Virus record (IMG/VR): IMGVR_UViG_3300010158_000005
Span: 1 to 45,564 of that record
Length of the DNA stretch: 45,564 nt
Strand: one strand, 5' to 3'
Source of the DNA: a virus
This document shows, piece after piece, positions 26,888-39,863 of the stretch. The notes beneath the pieces were generated by a model, which did not search any database, was not told the origin of the DNA, and saw only the letters and a program-made list of their open reading frames with translations. The position numbers and the translations under genes were made by a program. Position 1 is the first letter of the stretch. Each line of letters opens with the position of its first letter.

Positions 26888-27701
26888 AATATTTCCTCAA
26901 GTTGTCTGGAGTTAAGTTCTTAGGTTCAGGAACAAGGCTACTTGTCATGTTCTTGATTTTTATTTTGCTTGGCAAACAAACCATCAGTCTTTGTAGTATT
27001 TTTAATGAAGCTTTTTGTCCTGGTTCATCTGGATCTAGCCAAATAATTACTTTTTTATAGTGAACTAGTAGGTTTATTGTTTCGTCGGGTATAGATGTTT
27101 TTAATAACGCTACTGAAGCATGGTGTGTATCTCTACACACACGATAAGCACTCGTGTAGTCTTCAGTTATTACTATAACCTCTGTATCTTTATTAAACCA
27201 AGATACTCCTGTGCTTAGTTTTTTGTAATATGTTGTTTTGTATTTTGATTTTGTTGGGTCAAAGCTTCTTAGTTGATACCCGTATTGTTCATTAGCATAA
27301 TTACTTATTGGAAGATAAAGTTCTTTACAAAACTCTTTAAAGTTACGTCTATCTTGATCATCAGTAGTAGGAAACACATGGTGTTTAGCTAACCAATTGA
27401 CAATATCAGCACTGTGTACATTTCCAGGTCTAAGATTAAACCCATCAGTACGTCCTACTCTTGGCATATCATCTGTTTCGCTAAACAACCATTTCCTAAG
27501 TACTGTACCATCAGTAGAAAGCTCTCTCCAAAACCCATGATCGGAGCAATGGTGACAGTAAGCTACCACTCCTCCAACTACATGTTTGATATAGAGTCTT
27601 TTCTTACGGTCTACACCAGCATCACAGCCTTCGTGATCTATGTTTATCTGCTCCCCTATAGCCAATACGCTATAAGGTTGCAGTAGTTTTCTGTCGATCA
27701 T
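26877..27701 (-). CDS. DNA primase, TOPRIM type with zinc finger (274 aa)
   Basis: The N-terminal zinc-binding region includes Cys26 and the CHHC cluster at 49-52. The TOPRIM catalytic elements are VIVITED with Glu180, and IIWLDPDEPGQ with Asp223 and Asp225. The size and domain order equal the primase half of T7 gp4, here as an independent protein. It overlaps the helicase gene downstream by eleven bases and the AAA+ gene upstream by one base, so the three are co-translated. It should make primers for lagging-strand synthesis. Confidence 0.85.
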   Translation of the reverse strand: MIDRKLLQPYSVLAIGEQINIDHEGCDAGVDRKKRLYIKHVVGGVVAYCHHCSDHGFWRELSTDGTVLRKWLFSETDDMPRVGRTDGFNLRPGNVHSADIVNWLAKHHVFPTTDDQDRRNFKEFCKELYLPISNYANEQYGYQLRSFDPTKSKYKTTYYKKLSTGVSWFNKDTEVIVITEDYTSAYRVCRDTHHASVALLKTSIPDETINLLVHYKKVIIWLDPDEPGQKASLKILQRLMVCLPSKIKIKNMTSSLVPEPKNLTPDNLRKYFGL

Positions 27702-28834
27702 TAGGATGTTTTAGTACCGTAGATTTTACGGAAAAGTTCTTTAGAAACTTTTTGTTGTGTTTCGGTAAGCTTGTTTGTGTAAGAAAGATCAATAGCAGTA
27801 ACTAAAGCATACCCATATACGTGTTTCTTACAGATTGCTTGAAGTGCTCTAGGAGACATCGTGAGCGTAAGCTGTCCAGAAGAATACCCTTGACGAATCA
27901 GATTGGCAAACTTAACCAAGTTCTTGATCCAGTCTGCGGGGATACCAGGAAACTTACCGTTAAGCATCTTACACTCAACTGCTTCAGCCATGTAGCCCAT
28001 TCTTACTGTAGTTCCAAAACGATCTAACGTAGCTGTATTCTGTACGTTTGTACCGCTATGAGCACCTGTGTCATCGCCTTGGCCTTGTGTGTTACCAAGA
28101 GCAACAATACGAAACCTGTCTTCAGGCGTAATAAATTTATCAGCAGATGTTCCAGGCATCTCTTTGAGAAACAACTTGCCGTTCTCTTCCAGAAGCCACT
28201 GGAGACCCATGCTGATCTCAGAAGGGGTAACGTCCCACTCATCCCAAGCAAACACGGCTCCGTAACGTACAGCCTCTGTCAGGGTGCCATCTGTCCAGTA
28301 AGTAGAACCATCTTTGGCTTGTTGCTGACCAAAGATCATTGAGCTGTCCATGTCGCCTGTACAATTCAACCGAAAGAATGGACGACACGTATGAGCACAA
28401 AGCTGTTCAATGCAAGAACTTTTACCTGCTGCTGTTGGGCCATACACCAACACTTTCTCGTTGTTCTCCCAAGCCAGCAAGATGTCCTTGGTGACTGTTG
28501 CATCAAGAACATAATCAGGATCTACAACTGGAATGAAAGCTCGAATGCGTTCATCCCAATCTTCCGGTCTATAAACAGCAACTGGAAAGCTAGAATCAAA
28601 AGCAAGTAACGGAAACAACTTTTTTGCATCCATGTGTTTCTCACTAGTACGAAACTCAGGTGTTACTGTAGTAACTTTTTTAGTCGTTACTTCTACGTGT
28701 GGAAACAAATCAAGCGGATCAACATCAAATCCAGGGATAGTGGCTTTCTCTGCTGATACGCGCTTAGTCAAAGCATCTTTGATTGCGTCTTTAACCAAGT
28801 CTTCAACAGGCTTAACTACTGCGGGGCTAGTCAT
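27701..28834 (-). CDS. MoxR/CobS-like AAA+ ATPase (377 aa)
   Basis: After an N-terminal extension of about 70 residues comes a full AAA+ module: Walker A GPTAAGKSS (132-140), Walker B VFAWDE (Asp198, Glu199), sensor 1 with Asn248 in ALGNTQ, and an arginine finger Arg272 in LDRFG. The sequence around FGQQ..TYWTDGTLTEAVR is characteristic of the CobS/MoxR branch. It overlaps the VWA gene upstream by eight bases. Such pairs act as chaperone-like remodelling motors, in which the VWA protein selects the target (cobaltochelatase CobS-CobT, NorQ-NorD, RavA-ViaA). No chelatase partner CobN or cobalamin gene is present, so a different target is likely. Confidence 0.85.
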   Translation of the reverse strand: MTSPAVVKPVEDLVKDAIKDALTKRVSAEKATIPGFDVDPLDLFPHVEVTTKKVTTVTPEFRTSEKHMDAKKLFPLLAFDSSFPVAVYRPEDWDERIRAFIPVVDPDYVLDATVTKDILLAWENNEKVLVYGPTAAGKSSCIEQLCAHTCRPFFRLNCTGDMDSSMIFGQQQAKDGSTYWTDGTLTEAVRYGAVFAWDEWDVTPSEISMGLQWLLEENGKLFLKEMPGTSADKFITPEDRFRIVALGNTQGQGDDTGAHSGTNVQNTATLDRFGTTVRMGYMAEAVECKMLNGKFPGIPADWIKNLVKFANLIRQGYSSGQLTLTMSPRALQAICKKHVYGYALVTAIDLSYTNKLTETQQKVSKELFRKIYGTKTS

Positions 28835-30749
28835 TTAGCAATTTCCTCTCTATAAGTTCAAGCAATTTGGTGGGTATTTCTTCTGGCTCATTTACTGTAG
28901 AACAGTGTTTGTAGTACTTAAATACTGACTCATCACATAAACCTAAACCATATATCTCAACTCGTTTGTTACTTTCTATCTCTTGTATTACTTGTTTTGT
29001 AAAAGCTGATAAGTCATAACTGCTAAAGCTTGCAGCAGGTTGACCGTCAGACATTACAATTAACAACCGTTTCTTTTCTTTGCGTTTAATTAACCTGTCA
29101 TACGCCCAAAGAATTGAGTCACCATCTGGATTACCTGTCATGTGGTCTGAGCTGCAAGCTATGTTTTGAACCAAAGCTTCTTCAGACAATTTGAGTGCTG
29201 CAAAAGACTTGTAAATATAGTTAACTGGTGTGTTTATGCTGTGTGAATTATCAGTAAAACCAAGAATCTCAACCGGTACTTTAAGAACACCAAACACTTC
29301 ATTAAGAAGTACAGCAGCTTCACAAGCAAAAAACACTTTATCGCCAGACATACTTCCTGACATATCAATTAATACAGTTACAGCAGCATCAAGAACGGTA
29401 TTAGTAACTTTCTTCTTAAAGATACGTTCAGAGAATCCAGGTGTCTTAAGAGCTAACCTAGCCAACCTTGCGTAGTCCATCTTGCCTTGCTTAGTGCCAT
29501 ATTCGTACTGAGTCTTTGCTCGTATCTGTATCAAACGACGTACTTGTTGAGCAAAGTTATCAATGCGAGTTACTTTACTTTCTACTCTTTTGTAGAAATT
29601 CTTTATAAAAAAGTGAGAAGCTGCACTATCTCGGTTTAAAAGATAATCAAACCCATCTGAAGCTGTGTTTTTTATGTAATCTACTGTGATGTAGTCATCA
29701 ATTGAAGCAGCAAGCCAGGTGTAGTCTCTATCACCAACTTCTATCTTGTAGAGCAACCCAGTCTTGTTCATACGATCTTTTTCTTTTGTGTCGTGTGTAG
29801 ATACAAGCTTAGTGTCTATGTCTGCAAGCTCTACACGAACAACTTGCCACTGATCTTTAGTGATTTTCTTAGATTCATCATCTGATTCAGCATTTCCAGC
29901 AGCTCCAGACTCACCTAAACCTTCTATTTCTTCGCCTTTATCGGCTACTTTTTCTTCTTTTGGGGCTTTTTCGTCAGTTAATGGTGGTTTTTCTTCTGGT
30001 TTGGAATCTTTTTTTGTTGCTTCGGTTGGTTCTCCCTTCGGGGATTCTTTTTCTTCCTTACCGCCATCTTTAGCTGGTTTAGGAGGTTCTTTGACTCGTT
30101 TCTCTTCAGCGTCAGGATCACCCCCTAGAGCTTTAAAGATGTCTCTGGCTAGGTCATAGGTCATTGCTGATCCTAGCTTCTTTCCTGGCTCTTCCTGAGC
30201 GTCCAGGAGCCTATTTGAGAAGGGTTCCAGAGTCTTATCCATCTCCCCATCGGTTTTAAACCGACTTCCAGACAACTCACACTGAGGAAACAGCCTAGAA
30301 CTGACCTTGGTATCCCACTTAATGAGGGATTTGATGATTTTGTTTAAAGGACTAGCTTCTTCTTTTGTTTTTTCTCGTATTTGGTCAAGCAAAAGAGGAC
30401 AAGATTTATCCCAAAGCTCTCTAAACCCCTCATATTCGGTTGCTTCCAGGGCATTAACCCTAGAGTCTTCCAGAACGTTCCAGATAAACCCAAGAGGACT
30501 TGTTTGAGCACTGATTTTCTTTTCTCGAAGAATACCGAAGTCTGAATACAGATCGTGGGCTACTTCGTGATCTGTACTAGCCATAATGCTGTCAAGTTGC
30601 TCTTGAGTTGTGTGTCTGGTAATTCTGGGCAGGTAGATTGTTTCTCCGTCGTGCCTTGGTTGGCATTCGTCTTCAAATACAACACGGAGATTTGCTCTAC
30701 CTGCTGAAGCTTTTACGTACCTAGCTACGTCTAAGCCTTTAATCAACAT
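28827..30749 (-). CDS. CobT-like protein: N-terminal zincin motif plus C-terminal VWA (640 aa)
   Basis: Residues 61-65 read HEVAH, and a second motif NVLEDSRVN (91-99, Glu94) follows 29 residues later, so the N-terminal domain looks like a metallopeptidase. A charged, Lys/Glu/Pro-rich linker runs from about 215 to 300. The C-terminal VWA domain has a complete MIDAS start, Asp462-x-Ser464-x-Ser466 in DMSGSMSG, and the later motifs MTGNPDGDS and VMSDGQP. Its partner is the overlapping AAA+ gene. CobS/CobT-like pairs are known from some phages (for example Caulobacter phiCbK). The biological target is unknown. Confidence 0.82.
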   Translation of the reverse strand: MLIKGLDVARYVKASAGRANLRVVFEDECQPRHDGETIYLPRITRHTTQEQLDSIMASTDHEVAHDLYSDFGILREKKISAQTSPLGFIWNVLEDSRVNALEATEYEGFRELWDKSCPLLLDQIREKTKEEASPLNKIIKSLIKWDTKVSSRLFPQCELSGSRFKTDGEMDKTLEPFSNRLLDAQEEPGKKLGSAMTYDLARDIFKALGGDPDAEEKRVKEPPKPAKDGGKEEKESPKGEPTEATKKDSKPEEKPPLTDEKAPKEEKVADKGEEIEGLGESGAAGNAESDDESKKITKDQWQVVRVELADIDTKLVSTHDTKEKDRMNKTGLLYKIEVGDRDYTWLAASIDDYITVDYIKNTASDGFDYLLNRDSAASHFFIKNFYKRVESKVTRIDNFAQQVRRLIQIRAKTQYEYGTKQGKMDYARLARLALKTPGFSERIFKKKVTNTVLDAAVTVLIDMSGSMSGDKVFFACEAAVLLNEVFGVLKVPVEILGFTDNSHSINTPVNYIYKSFAALKLSEEALVQNIACSSDHMTGNPDGDSILWAYDRLIKRKEKKRLLIVMSDGQPAASFSSYDLSAFTKQVIQEIESNKRVEIYGLGLCDESVFKYYKHCSTVNEPEEIPTKLLELIERKLLND

Positions 30750-32566: not shown

Positions 32567-32846
32567 AGTTCTTCTCCCGTAACTTTCGTTCTGTTGCGTA
32601 TATAGCTTCGTCTGTTGTTTGTGCATTGTCTCTGATTTTTTTAATTTCTGTGCCCAACAAGCCCCGCCAATCATTCTTTTCTACTTTTGAATTTAATCTT
32701 TCAACTTCGTCTGACATATCCTGCCTGTTGATTTGCATTACCCTCATCGTCTCAATCATTTGAGAGATATACCGATTGAGAGTTCTAATTTCGTTCGTTA
32801 AAAATTCTTCCCTCGTGCCAAACTGACCAAATTTTTTGGTACTCAC
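32559..32846 (-). CDS. Coiled-coil hypothetical protein (95 aa), GTG start
   Basis: A GTG at 32846 follows AAAGGAGAAGAACAC, a strong ribosome-binding region. The protein is helical with heptad-like spacing (LTNEIRTLNRYISQMIETM, then VERLNSKVEK). It overlaps its neighbours by 4 and 8 bases. Function unknown. Confidence 0.55.
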   Translation of the reverse strand: MSTKKFGQFGTREEFLTNEIRTLNRYISQMIETMRVMQINRQDMSDEVERLNSKVEKNDWRGLLGTEIKKIRDNAQTTDEAIYATERKLREKNCG

Positions 32847-33412
32847 GTGTTCTTCTCCTTTAGTTTGGCTTCGATGGCGCGGGCAAAATCAGCGTGATAG
32901 GTATTGCTCCAGCGACACGAATTTGCAATGTCTGCAATTTCCTCATCCGTCAGCCCAACCCACTCCCTGCGCGGCGGGGCGGTGTAGAGAGGATAATTTC
33001 TAAATGACGTTCTGTATCTTGAAACGCCAACAGTAGTATCTGGGGTATGGCTACTAAATTTTAGCGATCCTAAATCTACAAACGCCACAGGTTTCTGTTC
33101 CGCAACTGTTAAGGATTCCTTTTCACCCTTTCTGATTGCGGCGTCCTTACGCAGCGCCACAATTATTTCAACGTAGTCACCCTTAAGCCCATCAAGGGCT
33201 TGCTCAACTGCGTAACAAAACTTCCTCTTGTCGTTCAGTTCCTCCTGTGCCTCGGCAAGTTTAGCGGCGGTTGTAAACTGGTCAACATTGCATAACCGCA
33301 ATTGCTCTCTTGCTTCAACAAGTTTGCGCTCAAGTTTACGGGCAAAGTTAAACGCTTCATCAATCGTTTCGCTGCCATCCTGCTCTGCATCCGTTCTTGG
33401 TGTGTCGCTCAT
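32843..33412 (-). CDS. Hypothetical early protein with C-terminal REWVGLTDEEI module (189 aa)
   Basis: I choose the ATG at 33412, within TGATGAGC, overlapping the upstream stop; an ATG one codon earlier is also possible. Residues 1-60 are a charged helix sharing EQLRLCNVDQFTTAAKLA with the gene upstream. The middle holds KPVAFVDLGSLKF. The C-terminus EWVGLTDEEIADIANSCRWS is a phrase common in small early proteins of proteobacterial temperate phages. The codon use and the segment suggest acquisition from such a phage. Confidence 0.6.
   Translation of the reverse strand: MSDTPRTDAEQDGSETIDEAFNFARKLERKLVEAREQLRLCNVDQFTTAAKLAEAQEELNDKRKFCYAVEQALDGLKGDYVEIIVALRKDAAIRKGEKESLTVAEQKPVAFVDLGSLKFSSHTPDTTVGVSRYRTSFRNYPLYTAPPRREWVGLTDEEIADIANSCRWSNTYHADFARAIEAKLKEKNT
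33251..33334. repeat. Direct repeat A shared by two adjacent genes
   Basis: About 84 bases similar to 33532-33615. Both encode the shared EQL-LCN-DQFTTAA-LA segment, which points to local duplication. Confidence 0.65.
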
Positions 33413-33666
33413 CACTCCCCCTTTCTGATTGCTGCCGCTGCGCCAGTTAAGATGTGATGCGCGTACACCGAATTAAAACTACCACGTTCCTCACACACCC
33501 TCGCGCACCGCTCACGCTCTTTCGCTACCGCATCGGCAAGTTCAGCGGCAGTCGTAAACTGGTCAATATTACATAAATGTAATTGCTCTTTTTCCTCGGC
33601 AAGTTCGCGCTCAAGCTGTTCAATCCGCAAAACCTGTTCTATGTACGTCGGTATAAGTTTGCTCAT
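33412..33666 (-). CDS. Small coiled-coil early protein (84 aa)
   Basis: Helical protein with EEKEQLHLCNIDQFTTAAELA (residues 25-45), then KERERCARVCEERG, a phrase frequent in small phage early proteins. It ends IRKGE, the same as the middle of the next gene (RKDAAIRKGE). It is linked to its neighbours by ATGA or TGATG overlaps. The similarity to the downstream gene suggests it arose by duplication of a segment. Function unknown. Confidence 0.6.
   Translation of the reverse strand: MSKLIPTYIEQVLRIEQLERELAEEKEQLHLCNIDQFTTAAELADAVAKERERCARVCEERGSFNSVYAHHILTGAAAAIRKGE
33532..33615. repeat. Direct repeat B shared by two adjacent genes
   Basis: Partner of 33251-33334. It lies in the upstream gene in the same orientation. 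Confidence 0.65.
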
Positions 33667-36123: not shown

Positions 36124-36180
36124 TGTTGGTCTCCAATAAACAAAAAGAAAGGGAGCCGAAGCTCCCATCCTAGGACTGTC

Positions 36181-36414
36181 TTACTCAACCCGCTTAGCAC
36201 GCTCCGCAGCTTGAGCTTTGCCTTTCTCTTTGATCTCCACCAGACCGTTAATAACGCCTTTGAGATCCATGCCGAGGGGGTTGTCGTAACGATACATCAC
36301 GTAGTCAACATCCTTCAGTAACCCAAGAGCCAAGTGGAGCTTCAACCCTGAACCAGCTTCCCGAACCATTGCGTTGAATGCTTTGAAGTCGAAGGTGTTT
36401 TGATTTTGAGCCAT
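36181..36414 (-). CDS. First leftward early protein (77 aa), hypothetical
   Basis: ATG at 36414 follows AACTAGGAGAAACAAA. The peptide opens AQNQNTFDFKAFNAMVREAG, then a helical region with LHLALGLLKDVDYVMYRYDNP, and ends in a Lys/Ala/Glu helix. Its ribosome-binding box and first codons are repeated in inverted form at 36761-36791, which suggests that the upstream leader was duplicated. Being the first gene after the divergent region, it is probably strongly expressed early. No family is recognised. Confidence 0.65.
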   Translation of the reverse strand: MAQNQNTFDFKAFNAMVREAGSGLKLHLALGLLKDVDYVMYRYDNPLGMDLKGVINGLVEIKEKGKAQAAERAKRVE

Positions 36415-36468
36415 TTTGTTTCTCCTAGTTTGTGTGTCGAGGGAAGCCCCCTCGAAGAAAGCCCCCCA
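36394..36468. repeat. Inverted repeat, left arm (about 75 bp)
   Basis: Read on the minus strand it runs GGGGGGCT, GGGGGCTTCC, TAGGAGAAACAAA, then the ATG region of the early gene. The right arm at 36721-36791 has the same order on the plus strand, with roughly 85-90% identity over the aligned part and two short gaps. Confidence 0.85.
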
Positions 36469-36720
36469 ACACCCGTCACCGAAGCCACGGGAAAGATGCC
36501 CTTGGAACGGCGGCAAGCATGACAGCCAGGAATTCGAGACCGAGCATTACCGGAGACTGGACACGTAGCGCAGCGAAGTGCCTGTCGAGGATAAGGCGGA
36601 GGGCGAGCTGGCTGGCAAAGGGAGCATAGCGACCTGGTGCTTGATCGCAAGGAGGAGCGCAGCGACGACTGGTGTGACCCCCGCAGGAGGCGTTACGGAG
36701 TAACGCGGTATCAAGTTATC
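36469..36720. ncRNA. GC-rich structured block between inverted repeats, candidate ncRNA or leader
   Basis: About 250 bases at roughly 60% GC inside a genome near 42%, without a convincing reading frame. Flanking arms pair over 36442-36451/732-741 (ten pairs) and 36460-36467/722-729 (eight pairs). Internal helices include CCCGT/ACGGG (36472-36476/36487-36491), CAGCCAG/CTGGCTG (36523-36529/36608-36614) and GCGTTAC/GTAACGC (36690-36696/36700-36706). The motif AGCG-AGCGA recurs three times (near 36567, 36628 and 36657). GC islands of this kind in AT-richer genomes often mark structured RNA. The transcribed strand is unknown. Confidence 0.55.
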
Positions 36721-36791
36721 TGGGGGGCTGCGGGGGCTTCCATCAACACAGAAACTTGAATAGGAGAAACAAAGTGGATCGAAATTAAAAC
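36721..36791. repeat. Inverted repeat, right arm (about 71 bp)
   Basis: Plus-strand copy of the left arm. It includes GGGGGGCT (36722-36729), GGGGGCTTCC (36732-36741), TAGGAGAAACAAA (36761-36773) and GTGG in place of ATGG at the start-codon position. Confidence 0.85.
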
Positions 36792-36963
36792 GGTTACCGA
36801 AGACTACGAAGCAAATGATGACCAATGGTTGCTGGATCGGGAATTGAAAAGCGCAACGACTGTTGGGTTACACCAAGAAGGTGTTGGTGGAGTGGTGTGT
36901 TGTTACGACTCCGTAGGACTTGGATCACTCACAGGCGTTTTAAGGGGCTGGAGGAATCAATAG
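36772..36963 (+). pseudogene. Coding-like frame (about 62 codons) without a usable start
   Basis: From 36775 the frame reads WIEIKTVTEDYEANDDQWLLDRELKSAT and ends GVLRGWRNQ at the TAG at 36961-36963. Its composition looks protein-like. TAGGAGAAACAAA stands directly before it, but the GTG at the expected spacing (36774) is in another frame and stops after four codons (VDRN). A small deletion at the start codon, or a non-canonical start, would explain this. It is the only possible rightward gene expressed from the right inverted-repeat arm. Confidence 0.4.
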
Positions 36964-37137
36964 GCAACAGGTCTACCAGGAGCAGTGCTTGCGGTTGACT
37001 GAGGCTGTCCTGGTGGGTTCTGGAGGCATGTCTGTATGGGGTAGTGGAGTGGTAGTTAGTGGGAGTGATGGATGAGGTAAGTCATTGAATTAACAGTGTG
37101 TTGCAATAACATCAATAAGAACAAAGACTTAAGTTAG
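36964..37137. other. Non-coding spacer, G-rich plus strand
   Basis: No convincing gene. A 28-codon TTG-start frame at 36989-37075 follows AGGAG but is too weak to call. The plus strand is strikingly G/T-rich (repeated GTGG and AGTGG). Confidence 0.4.
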
Positions 37138-37405
37138 TTATCCACAGAGTTATCCACAGGTTAGTCCTTGTTGTGGTCTGTGTAGTATCAACAACCCTGT
37201 GTTATCCAGGTCAAGAGTCGGGGGTGGGGAGGGAAAAGAATGCTTAGTTAATTATTATATATAGCAACTTATAACAATTCTTATAGTTTATAAACTAGGG
37301 GAGGTATAGTAGTACTTCTTAATACTACATATAGTACTTAGTACTACTATTACTATAAAAACACTACTATATATACTATATATAACTACTATATATATTA
37401 CTGTC
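37138..37405. other. Candidate replication origin: DnaA boxes plus AT-rich stretch
   Basis: Two perfect DnaA boxes, TTATCCACA at 37138-37146 and 37150-37158, lie three bases apart, with a partial third (TTATCCAGG, 37203-37211). A G-rich stretch (about 37219-37233) and then roughly 155 bases of AT-rich sequence with ATATAT and AGTACT repeats (37245-37400) follow, as in a DNA-unwinding element. The location between divergent early and late arms is typical for an origin. Confidence 0.55.
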
Positions 37406-38336: not shown

Positions 38337-39863
38337 ATGGCTGAAAGCCGTTTATCCGCAGAGGTTCTCGAAGGGTTTATCTGTAGCGTCCTGAGAAGGA
38401 ACTTTGATGACCCTGCGGATAACGCTGACTTTCACAAAGAGATCTGGCAATACGTTTGTTCTCCAGACTCCAAGGTAGCCATTGCAGCACCGCGTAACCA
38501 CGCCAAGAGCACCGTAGTAACTCACGCTTATACCCTAGCATCTGTCTTATTCAGAGAACAGACTTACGTAATTATTGTCTCTGATACTGTTGGTCAATCC
38601 GTACAGTTCCTCGGAGACATCAAAAAGGAACTTGTAGAGAATGAAGATCTTAGAAATTTATTTGGTGTTAGAGAGTTTGTTAAAGACACTGAAGACGACC
38701 TTATTTGCAGTATGGATGACGGCCACTTGTTTCGTATTCAAGCTAAGGGATCTGAACAAAAACTGAGGGGTTTAAAGTGGAAGAACCGTAGGCCAGGTCT
38801 TATCGTTGGGGACGATATGGAGAACGATGAGATCGTAATGAACCGAGACAGACGGTTAAAGTTCAAACGATGGTTCTATGGAGCCTTGCTTCCAGCTCTG
38901 TCTGACAAAGGCAAGATTAGGTTAGTAGGTACTATCCTTCACCTTGACAGCCTTCTTGAGAACCTAATGCCTAGCAGCCTTCTCAAGACTATTGCAGGAG
39001 GCCACAAGAGCCTTATTCGGGAAGACCTACGAGAATACACAGACGTAAGACTGTCTTGGAAATCTATCAAGTACCGAGCACATACGGAAGACTACAGTAA
39101 GCTTCTCTGGCCCCAAAAGAAGTCTGCCAAAGAGTTTAAGGCTATGAAGGAAGACTACGCTAGACAAGGACTGTCTGATGTCTACAGTCAGGAAATGTTT
39201 AACGTTCCTGTTGATGAGACAGATACCTTTTTTAAGAAACACGATTTCATAGCTATGACTGGGGACAACAAAAAGAAAAAACTTTTGTATTACATTACCT
39301 GCGATCTAGCGGTATCTCAGTCCCAAAAGGCTGACTATTCGGCTTTCTGTGTAGCTGGCATGGATGACGAGAACAAGCTTCACTTAGTCCATGTTTTAAA
39401 GGAGAGACTTGACTCTTTACAAATAGTGGATACTATGCTTGCCTTACAGAGGATCTATAAGCCGGTACTCTTTGGAATCGAAAAGGGTGTTATTCAGAAG
39501 TCGATAGGCCCGTATCTTAATGAGGCGATGCAAGAGCGCAACGAGTACATCAGCACAGCTTTACTGGCTCCGTCTGCTGATAAACTTACCCGCGCTAGAA
39601 GCATACAAGCCAGAATGAGAGCTGGGGCTGTAAGATTTGACAAAGACTCTGATTGGTACCAGTCTTTCGAGGATGAGTTGATTAGGTTTCCGCGTGATAG
39701 GCACGATGACCAGGTAGATGCGTGGGCATACATGGGATTGATGCTTGATAAAATGTGGGAAACCCCCTCCGAGAAAGAGGACGAGGACGAAGAGTACCGC
39801 CTTATGGTTCGTAAGTTTCAGTCTGACGATATGGTGGGCAGAAGCCCCGTTACCGGATACTAG
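38337..39863 (+). CDS. Terminase large subunit (508 aa)
   Basis: ATPase-nuclease that drives DNA into the prohead. The Walker A variant APRNHAKST is at 51-59 and Walker B LIVGDDME at about 155-162 (Asp159, Asp160, catalytic Glu162). The RNase H-like nuclease has Asp323 in ITCDLA, an acidic GIEKG motif near 383, and HDDQVDAW at 456-463 with Asp457 and Asp461. The length is usual. It lies nine bases after the tiny basic gene and sixteen before the portal. Confidence 0.92.
   Translation: MAESRLSAEVLEGFICSVLRRNFDDPADNADFHKEIWQYVCSPDSKVAIAAPRNHAKSTVVTHAYTLASVLFREQTYVIIVSDTVGQSVQFLGDIKKELVENEDLRNLFGVREFVKDTEDDLICSMDDGHLFRIQAKGSEQKLRGLKWKNRRPGLIVGDDMENDEIVMNRDRRLKFKRWFYGALLPALSDKGKIRLVGTILHLDSLLENLMPSSLLKTIAGGHKSLIREDLREYTDVRLSWKSIKYRAHTEDYSKLLWPQKKSAKEFKAMKEDYARQGLSDVYSQEMFNVPVDETDTFFKKHDFIAMTGDNKKKKLLYYITCDLAVSQSQKADYSAFCVAGMDDENKLHLVHVLKERLDSLQIVDTMLALQRIYKPVLFGIEKGVIQKSIGPYLNEAMQERNEYISTALLAPSADKLTRARSIQARMRAGAVRFDKDSDWYQSFEDELIRFPRDRHDDQVDAWAYMGLMLDKMWETPSEKEDEDEEYRLMVRKFQSDDMVGRSPVTGY

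Follow-up and report, generated by a model that had tools for sequence, protein, structure and literature searches.

A small phage gene and its non-coding mirror flank a GC-rich, folded block in a group of uncultured phages: a candidate plus-strand RNA hairpin

Introduction

What is the role of two inverted arms around a GC-rich block, placed where the early and the structural genes of a phage diverge? The question is raised by the phage genome in IMG/VR record IMGVR_UViG_3300010158_000005, which was analysed over its whole length of 45,564 nucleotides (hereafter the window). An initial annotation had offered three explanations: a large structured RNA closed by the arms, a duplicated early leader driving divergent genes, or an invertible segment.

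Results

Genome setting of the locus

A terminal direct repeat of 123 bp shows that the window is a complete phage genome. Leftward genes encode replication functions (DNA polymerase A, a CobS/CobT-like pair), and rightward genes the terminase and structural proteins. The locus is the point of divergence between the two sets, and the GC skew switches sign there. Terminase identity to the nearest named relatives was below 51%. The features of the locus and its surroundings are the following, in window coordinates:

36131 to 36468, plus strand: left arm, which in a plus-strand RNA would be antisense to the small gene, with limits from local alignment and the plus-strand fold
36151 to 36166, minus strand: terminator-like hairpin of the small gene, approximately where the mirrored unit ends; the mirrors of relatives L005 and L006 include the terminator
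36181 to 36414, minus strand: gene for a small protein of 77 aa (MAQNQNTFDFKAFNAMVREAG...), which forms the template side ("L") for the mirror, recognized by HMM homologues and codon-position pattern
36415 to 36468, minus strand: leader of the small gene (GGGGGGCT..GGGGGCTTCC..TAGGAG..ATG), the proximal left arm, pairing with 36721 to 36775 in the window genome
36469 to 36720, plus strand: GC-rich, U-poor block forming the loop region, with a folded, covarying RNA core in relatives
36721 to 37049, plus strand: mirror arm ("R"), in which leader, gene and terminator are copied in degenerate, non-coding form, most firmly over 36732 to 36960
37138 to 37158, plus strand: two DnaA-box consensus sites (TTATCCACA) in tandem, 12 bp apart, directly right of the mirror
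37230 to 37400, no strand assigned: AT-rich, TAG-rich stretch (26-31% GC), a candidate unwinding element common to relatives
38337 to 39863, plus strand: terminase large subunit (phrog_38, E 4e-80; Terminase_6C), the first firm gene of the rightward structural module

Many relatives had twin DnaA boxes in the corresponding region, usually as two copies of TGTGGATAA 11 bp apart, and the AT-rich stretch had blastn matches in L004, L005, L006, L009, L010, L011, L013 and other relatives. Together, the boxes and this stretch may represent a phage origin dependent on host DnaA. Between positions 36990 and 37230 of the window, and over the 300 nt past the mirror in relatives, the DNA is non-coding and has a strongly positive GC skew of ~0.3-0.5 with a C-poor plus strand, properties that would favour R-loops if the region were transcribed rightward. 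Nearly half of the related contigs start between the mirror and the terminase gene, within ~2 kb of the latter on its upstream side, reflecting either an assembly break in this region or a physical genome end.

The small gene and its distribution

The small gene is real: homologues were detected by HMM in 41 of 42 related loci, and it is the third codon position that varies most (summed differences of 41/27/112 for the three positions). Its protein had no match in Pfam or PHROG. Used as sole query, it retrieved no relatives among viral contigs and none among named phages; the group was then opened by a terminase query, through which ~137 related contigs were found in IMG/VR.

The order of gene, block and mirror was constant in all relatives seen. 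By blastn alone, the same layout was recovered in seven other genomes, with a spacer of 150-330 nt and a mirror 69-79% identical. Sensitive alignment revealed a clear mirror (Z >6) in at least 18 of the 41 gene-bearing loci and Z values of 4-6 in about 10 more. In about a dozen relatives (L013, L026, L049, L059, L065, L075, L081 and others), the distal mirror was faint or escaped detection. Two phages outside the group, the nearest named ones (Alcaligenes phage vB_Af_QDWS535, MW202796), carry no mirror. A search for near DNA matches in phages gave nothing, nor did one with the core DNA in named phages, and none of the cellular genomes searched carries the terminase. Across IMG/VR, those matches to the core pattern that lay near the small gene belonged to this group, and the remainder were chance-like.

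A non-coding mirror of the whole gene

Inverted arms had been proposed in the initial annotation, and a repeat search recovered them at 36397-36427/36761-36791 (31 nt, 87%) and 36427-36451/36732-36756 (25 nt, 88%). The block between them is indeed GC-rich (GC 0.61-0.65). The similarity runs well beyond these repeats: self-comparison aligned 36230-36451 (minus) with 36732-36960 (plus) at 68.7% over 243 nt (E 1e-12), and gapped local alignment stretched the match, at lower quality, to ~36131-36468/36721-37049 (Z 23 versus shuffles). The 18-bp arm pairing described initially is present, as merely the tip of arms ~300 nt long. Likewise, the two leader arms are a duplication, but one of the entire small gene, which from leader to terminator is inversely copied into a non-coding mirror beyond the block. 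Folding of the plus strand over 36141-36998 gave z = -11.1; the minus strand of the locus also folds better than shuffles (z -8.6).

There is no open frame in the right arm. The right frame of the window stops four codons after its GTG, and the mirrors of relatives have indels relative to the gene; a divergent early gene pair is not supported. The idea of an early leader driving divergent genes therefore keeps its duplication, but the whole gene is copied and no right-hand gene was found in the relatives examined. A chimera of amplification or assembly was rejected as well: its arms would be identical, whereas the observed arms have an identity of 73-87% and were found again in dozens of independent samples.

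Coevolution of gene and mirror

In a cross-score matrix, strong mirrors scored best with the gene of their own genome, often with twice the score of any other genome's gene (own versus best other: L005 337 vs 130, L024 347 vs 78, L055 240 vs 82, L009 282 vs 90, window 228 vs 94). The L009 gene scored higher with its own mirror (282) than with the gene of its nearest relative (138). Such scores arise either when the mirror is remade often or when both sides change together. A mirror insertion of 3-6 nt before the Shine-Dalgarno copy is common to 20 of 26 genomes, and the mirror must therefore be old. Joint change of both sides is favoured by this common insertion and by the leader arms of 16 genomes, which differ in sequence yet match (e.g., GGGGGCTAATT, GGGGGCTAGTT, GGGGGCTAAAT, GGGGGCGGTT).

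The proximal arms of the 16 genomes were 93.2% paired, a value that is favoured by the choice of arm segments by similarity, an effect bounded by slid controls (41-60% paired) and shuffles (65%). Ten of the 11 pairs had changed on both sides, and covariation was 0.752, compared with 0.195 in shuffled arms and reached by none of 500 shuffles. From L038 to L045, nine of 16 gene changes were matched in the mirror and two more were accommodated via wobble. Between the closely related L010 and L011, the gene has changed at few positions, and at none of them was an identical mirror base restored. These two comparisons are the informative ones, as such compensation counts over many genome pairs are noisy where the pairs are distant.

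Strand polarity and a limit to perfect pairing

C>T (106) and A>G (88) made up most of the changes from gene to mirror, versus 6 T>C and 20 G>A (194 vs 26). Both of the frequent changes keep a G.U pair in plus-strand RNA and break the minus-strand pair. The plus-strand fold was more stable than the minus-strand fold in 39 of 41 genomes (e.g., -480 vs -280 kcal/mol for L040). Among the 15 genomes with strong mirrors, plus-strand pairing was 0.869 (sd 0.020), minus-strand pairing 0.825 (sd 0.045) and identity 0.809 (sd 0.040). Gene-mirror identity spans 73-87% while plus-strand pairing stays near 87%, and transversion mismatches are steady at 0.116 (sd 0.016) while wobble changes vary from 0.02 to 0.16. 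In our reading, the conserved quantity would be plus-strand pairing. The plus strand has little C in the mirror and in the DNA that follows, and the transversions show polarity as well; mutational bias contributes to the strand polarity and may explain part of it.

The longest identical run between the arms was 8-13 nt in all 15 genomes and never exceeded 13 nt, a length that the gap-friendly alignment may have shortened somewhat. The breaks were spaced more evenly than random (mean squared run, P ≤ 0.004 in 12 of 15 genomes). This cap is evidence against both tract copying and site-specific inversion. With runs so short and the layout of the locus constant, an invertible segment is not supported. 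The cap fits avoidance of double-strand RNA cleavage, of palindrome instability or of recombination. A mirror that matches its own gene, never over more than ~13 bases, would imply a specific enzyme or competitor setting the limit.

The folded core

When MAFFT alignments of the block were folded with plain alifold, the structures were poor for either strand because the spacer hairpins vary, and the helices were therefore tested on anchored segments and with a covariance model. On anchored segments, pairing in the core helices was 97.6%, and both sides had changed in 7 of 15 pairs. A 20-sequence core alignment was fitted to the covariance model; its helices P3 and P4 were 95.6% paired, with 8 of 18 pairs changed on both sides (0 of 500 shuffles). 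In relatives, P3 occurs as GCACUAA/UUAGUGC, GCAGAAA/UUUCUGC, GCACAAA/UUUGUGC, GCAGGUA/UACCUGC and others, and P4 as CCAUGCCA/UGGCGUGG or CCGUGCCA/UGGCGCGG, with an invariant U.G. This pair is unchanged in 20 of 20 core rows and would be A.C on the minus strand.

A covariance model built from 10 sequences found the core in the blocks of L005, L006, L019, L024 and L055, all outside the model-building set, with E values of 1e-3 to 1e-5. Its matches were confined to the plus strand and to the block, and there were none elsewhere in 805 kb. The model did not match the blocks of the window, L009, L010 and L011. These form a subtype in which 11 of 41 predicted pairs were double-sided, with a covariation term of ~0 over the four sequences. 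For the window itself, the core, whose fold rests on these four sequences, is weaker than the arms.

In one subtype (L023-like, L052-like), the loop CAAAGG..CGACGAC is replaced by GGTTC..GGTTC within the same outer helix, as if the two internal loop modules of the core were interchangeable.

The covariance search against Rfam that the initial annotation had suggested, performed for the window and eight relatives, gave no family at the gathering threshold, and a permissive search only chance-level matches. Helix conservation in related phages, the absence of which was to speak against a structured RNA, was looked for and found. The covariation in arms and block of these phages supports a large structured RNA closed by stems, and the relatives' arms and cores (each 0 of 500 shuffles) would place the locus in the general class of structured RNAs.

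Exchange as a cassette

The window and L009 are ~73-96% identical outside the locus and diverged inside it (roughly 36135-36990). L023 and L024 are likewise diverged inside, with the right boundary at the mirror end. Judging by these boundaries, gene, block and mirror are swapped together, as one cassette, between close relatives.

Discussion

Our main reading of the locus, to which we assign a probability of about 0.5, is a conserved plus-strand RNA, 0.6-0.9 kb long, that forms a hairpin around a folded core and is probably a cis-antisense switch. Structure and coevolution are well supported by the genome comparisons. The mirror, its coevolution with the gene, the compensatory changes in arms and core, the plus-strand polarity, the run limit and the cassette behaviour were all read from genome sequences; from these we infer plus-strand transcription and a function of the RNA.

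In the proposed switch, the 5' arm of the RNA would be the antisense of the small early gene (leader, ORF, terminator), the centre the folded GC-rich core, and the 3' arm the non-coding mirror, pairing back onto the antisense arm. Selection would hold the arms at ~87% pairing, tolerate the accumulation of G.U and limit perfect helices to ≤~13 bp. The imperfect mirror would hold the antisense arm until the mRNA of the small gene, its perfect complement, displaced the mirror. The RNA would then refold and report early transcription downstream, where possible outputs are the candidate origin (DnaA boxes/AT-rich region) and/or the terminase/structural operon. Under this mechanism, the mirror must follow the gene because it holds the antisense arm, and it must be worse than the gene's mRNA because the mRNA has to displace it. 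A cis-antisense switch would also explain why cassettes move whole. Taken by itself, the mechanism is tentative and rather doubtful. Its main weakness is the lack of a conserved rightward promoter: none was found left of the small gene, where a terminator abuts the next leftward gene.

The mirror could instead be maintained at the DNA level, without any RNA function, if template switching at a long quasi-palindrome beside an origin re-copied the gene into the mirror, and if selection against long palindromes and strand-biased deamination broke the symmetry. Homogenisation of inverted-repeat arms by template switching is known (PMC7202029, PMC8604942). Such upkeep accounts for a mirror that tracks its gene, for polarised changes in a C-poor region and for loss in some lineages; however, it should leave long identical tracts, and the runs are ≤13 nt and spaced more evenly than random. 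The Shine-Dalgarno-proximal insertion in 20 of 26 genomes indicates that the arms were not just copied anew, mismatches by transversion hold at about 12% against a spread of 2 to 16% for G.U-type changes, and the core has covariation of its own. We regard this explanation as unlikely. A quite improbable one is leader regulation on the minus strand, by a leftward transcript from right of the mirror whose 5' UTR, consisting of the mirror complement and the block, masks the small gene's Shine-Dalgarno and start in the manner of a riboswitch or attenuator. The polarity of G.U and mismatches and the pairing variance favour the plus strand, the invariant U.G of the core would be lost as A.C, and the mirror covers the whole gene, beyond the leader, even if most mirrors retain a Shine-Dalgarno copy and the minus strand of the window folds better than shuffles.

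A further explanation, in which the gene was duplicated in inverted orientation and the right copy is decaying as a pseudogene without a role, would fit the missing open frame and the similarity gone in some relatives. An old neutral duplicate should resemble all orthologues about equally, whereas each mirror fits its own gene best; compensatory changes are abundant, and a non-coding stretch of this size is kept across strongly diverged phages. The pseudogene is thus largely refuted and very unlikely.

To our knowledge, a gene-length hairpin with compensatory evolution in a dsDNA phage, one side of which is a conserved protein gene, is undescribed. Like ColE1 RNA I/RNA II and pMV158 RNAII, the proposed switch would involve overlapping sense and antisense RNAs near an origin, and a structured RNA whose fold depends on antisense pairing. 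The pairing specificity of plasmid counter-transcribed RNAs can also diversify, but here the antisense partner would be a protein-coding mRNA, the RNA would have a gene-length mirror, and replication control is only a candidate. GOLLD and ROOL, which are often phage-borne, and OLE are likewise long structured non-coding RNAs; the present locus differs in having no Rfam match and in being mostly one rod, one side of which is a protein gene read backwards. Hepatitis delta virus and Obelisks form long imperfect rods with evenly spaced interruptions and coding sequence along one flank. The locus resembles them in these respects, but it belongs to a dsDNA phage genome, its ORF is on the strand opposite to the putative rod, and no ribozyme family was found. 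In plant MIR genes and animal hpRNAs, an inverted copy of a target gene folds into a hairpin that contains mismatches and G.U pairs and tracks its target, much as the mirror follows the small gene. Such RNA interference machinery is not known from bacteria. P1 c4 and P4 CI, phage antisense immunity RNAs, also pair near an early control region, but they are short and mirror no whole gene. Structures of large ornate RNAs are the subject of PMC12286853. The resemblances to these and to the counter-transcribed RNAs are leads, not membership.

If the hairpin is transcribed, abundant uncultured phages would contain a large RNA that has escaped recognition, and the locus would be a model for an inverted gene duplication becoming a regulator. 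It is conceivable, though we remain sceptical, that the locus represents a genetic element of a new class: a single cassette, exchangeable as such, made up of a gene and a non-coding mirror of the gene's entire transcript. Selection would keep the mirror complementary to the antisense, though never perfectly, and the gene's own mRNA would trigger an RNA switch. Cassettes of different sequence would then not cross-react, which could create phage compatibility groups.

Additional observations

At 27701-30749 of the window, a CobS-like AAA ATPase is found beside a CobT-like VWA protein, a pair also known from cobaviruses. The neighbouring minus-strand ORFs at 32843-33415 and 33412-33666 have alike N-termini (EQLRLCNVDQFTTAAKLA / EQLHLCNIDQFTTAAELA) and possibly stem from a recent partial gene duplication. 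In two relatives (L011:6540-6620, L013:9320-9400), a tRNA-like sequence with a CCA end lies directly ahead of the small terminase gene.
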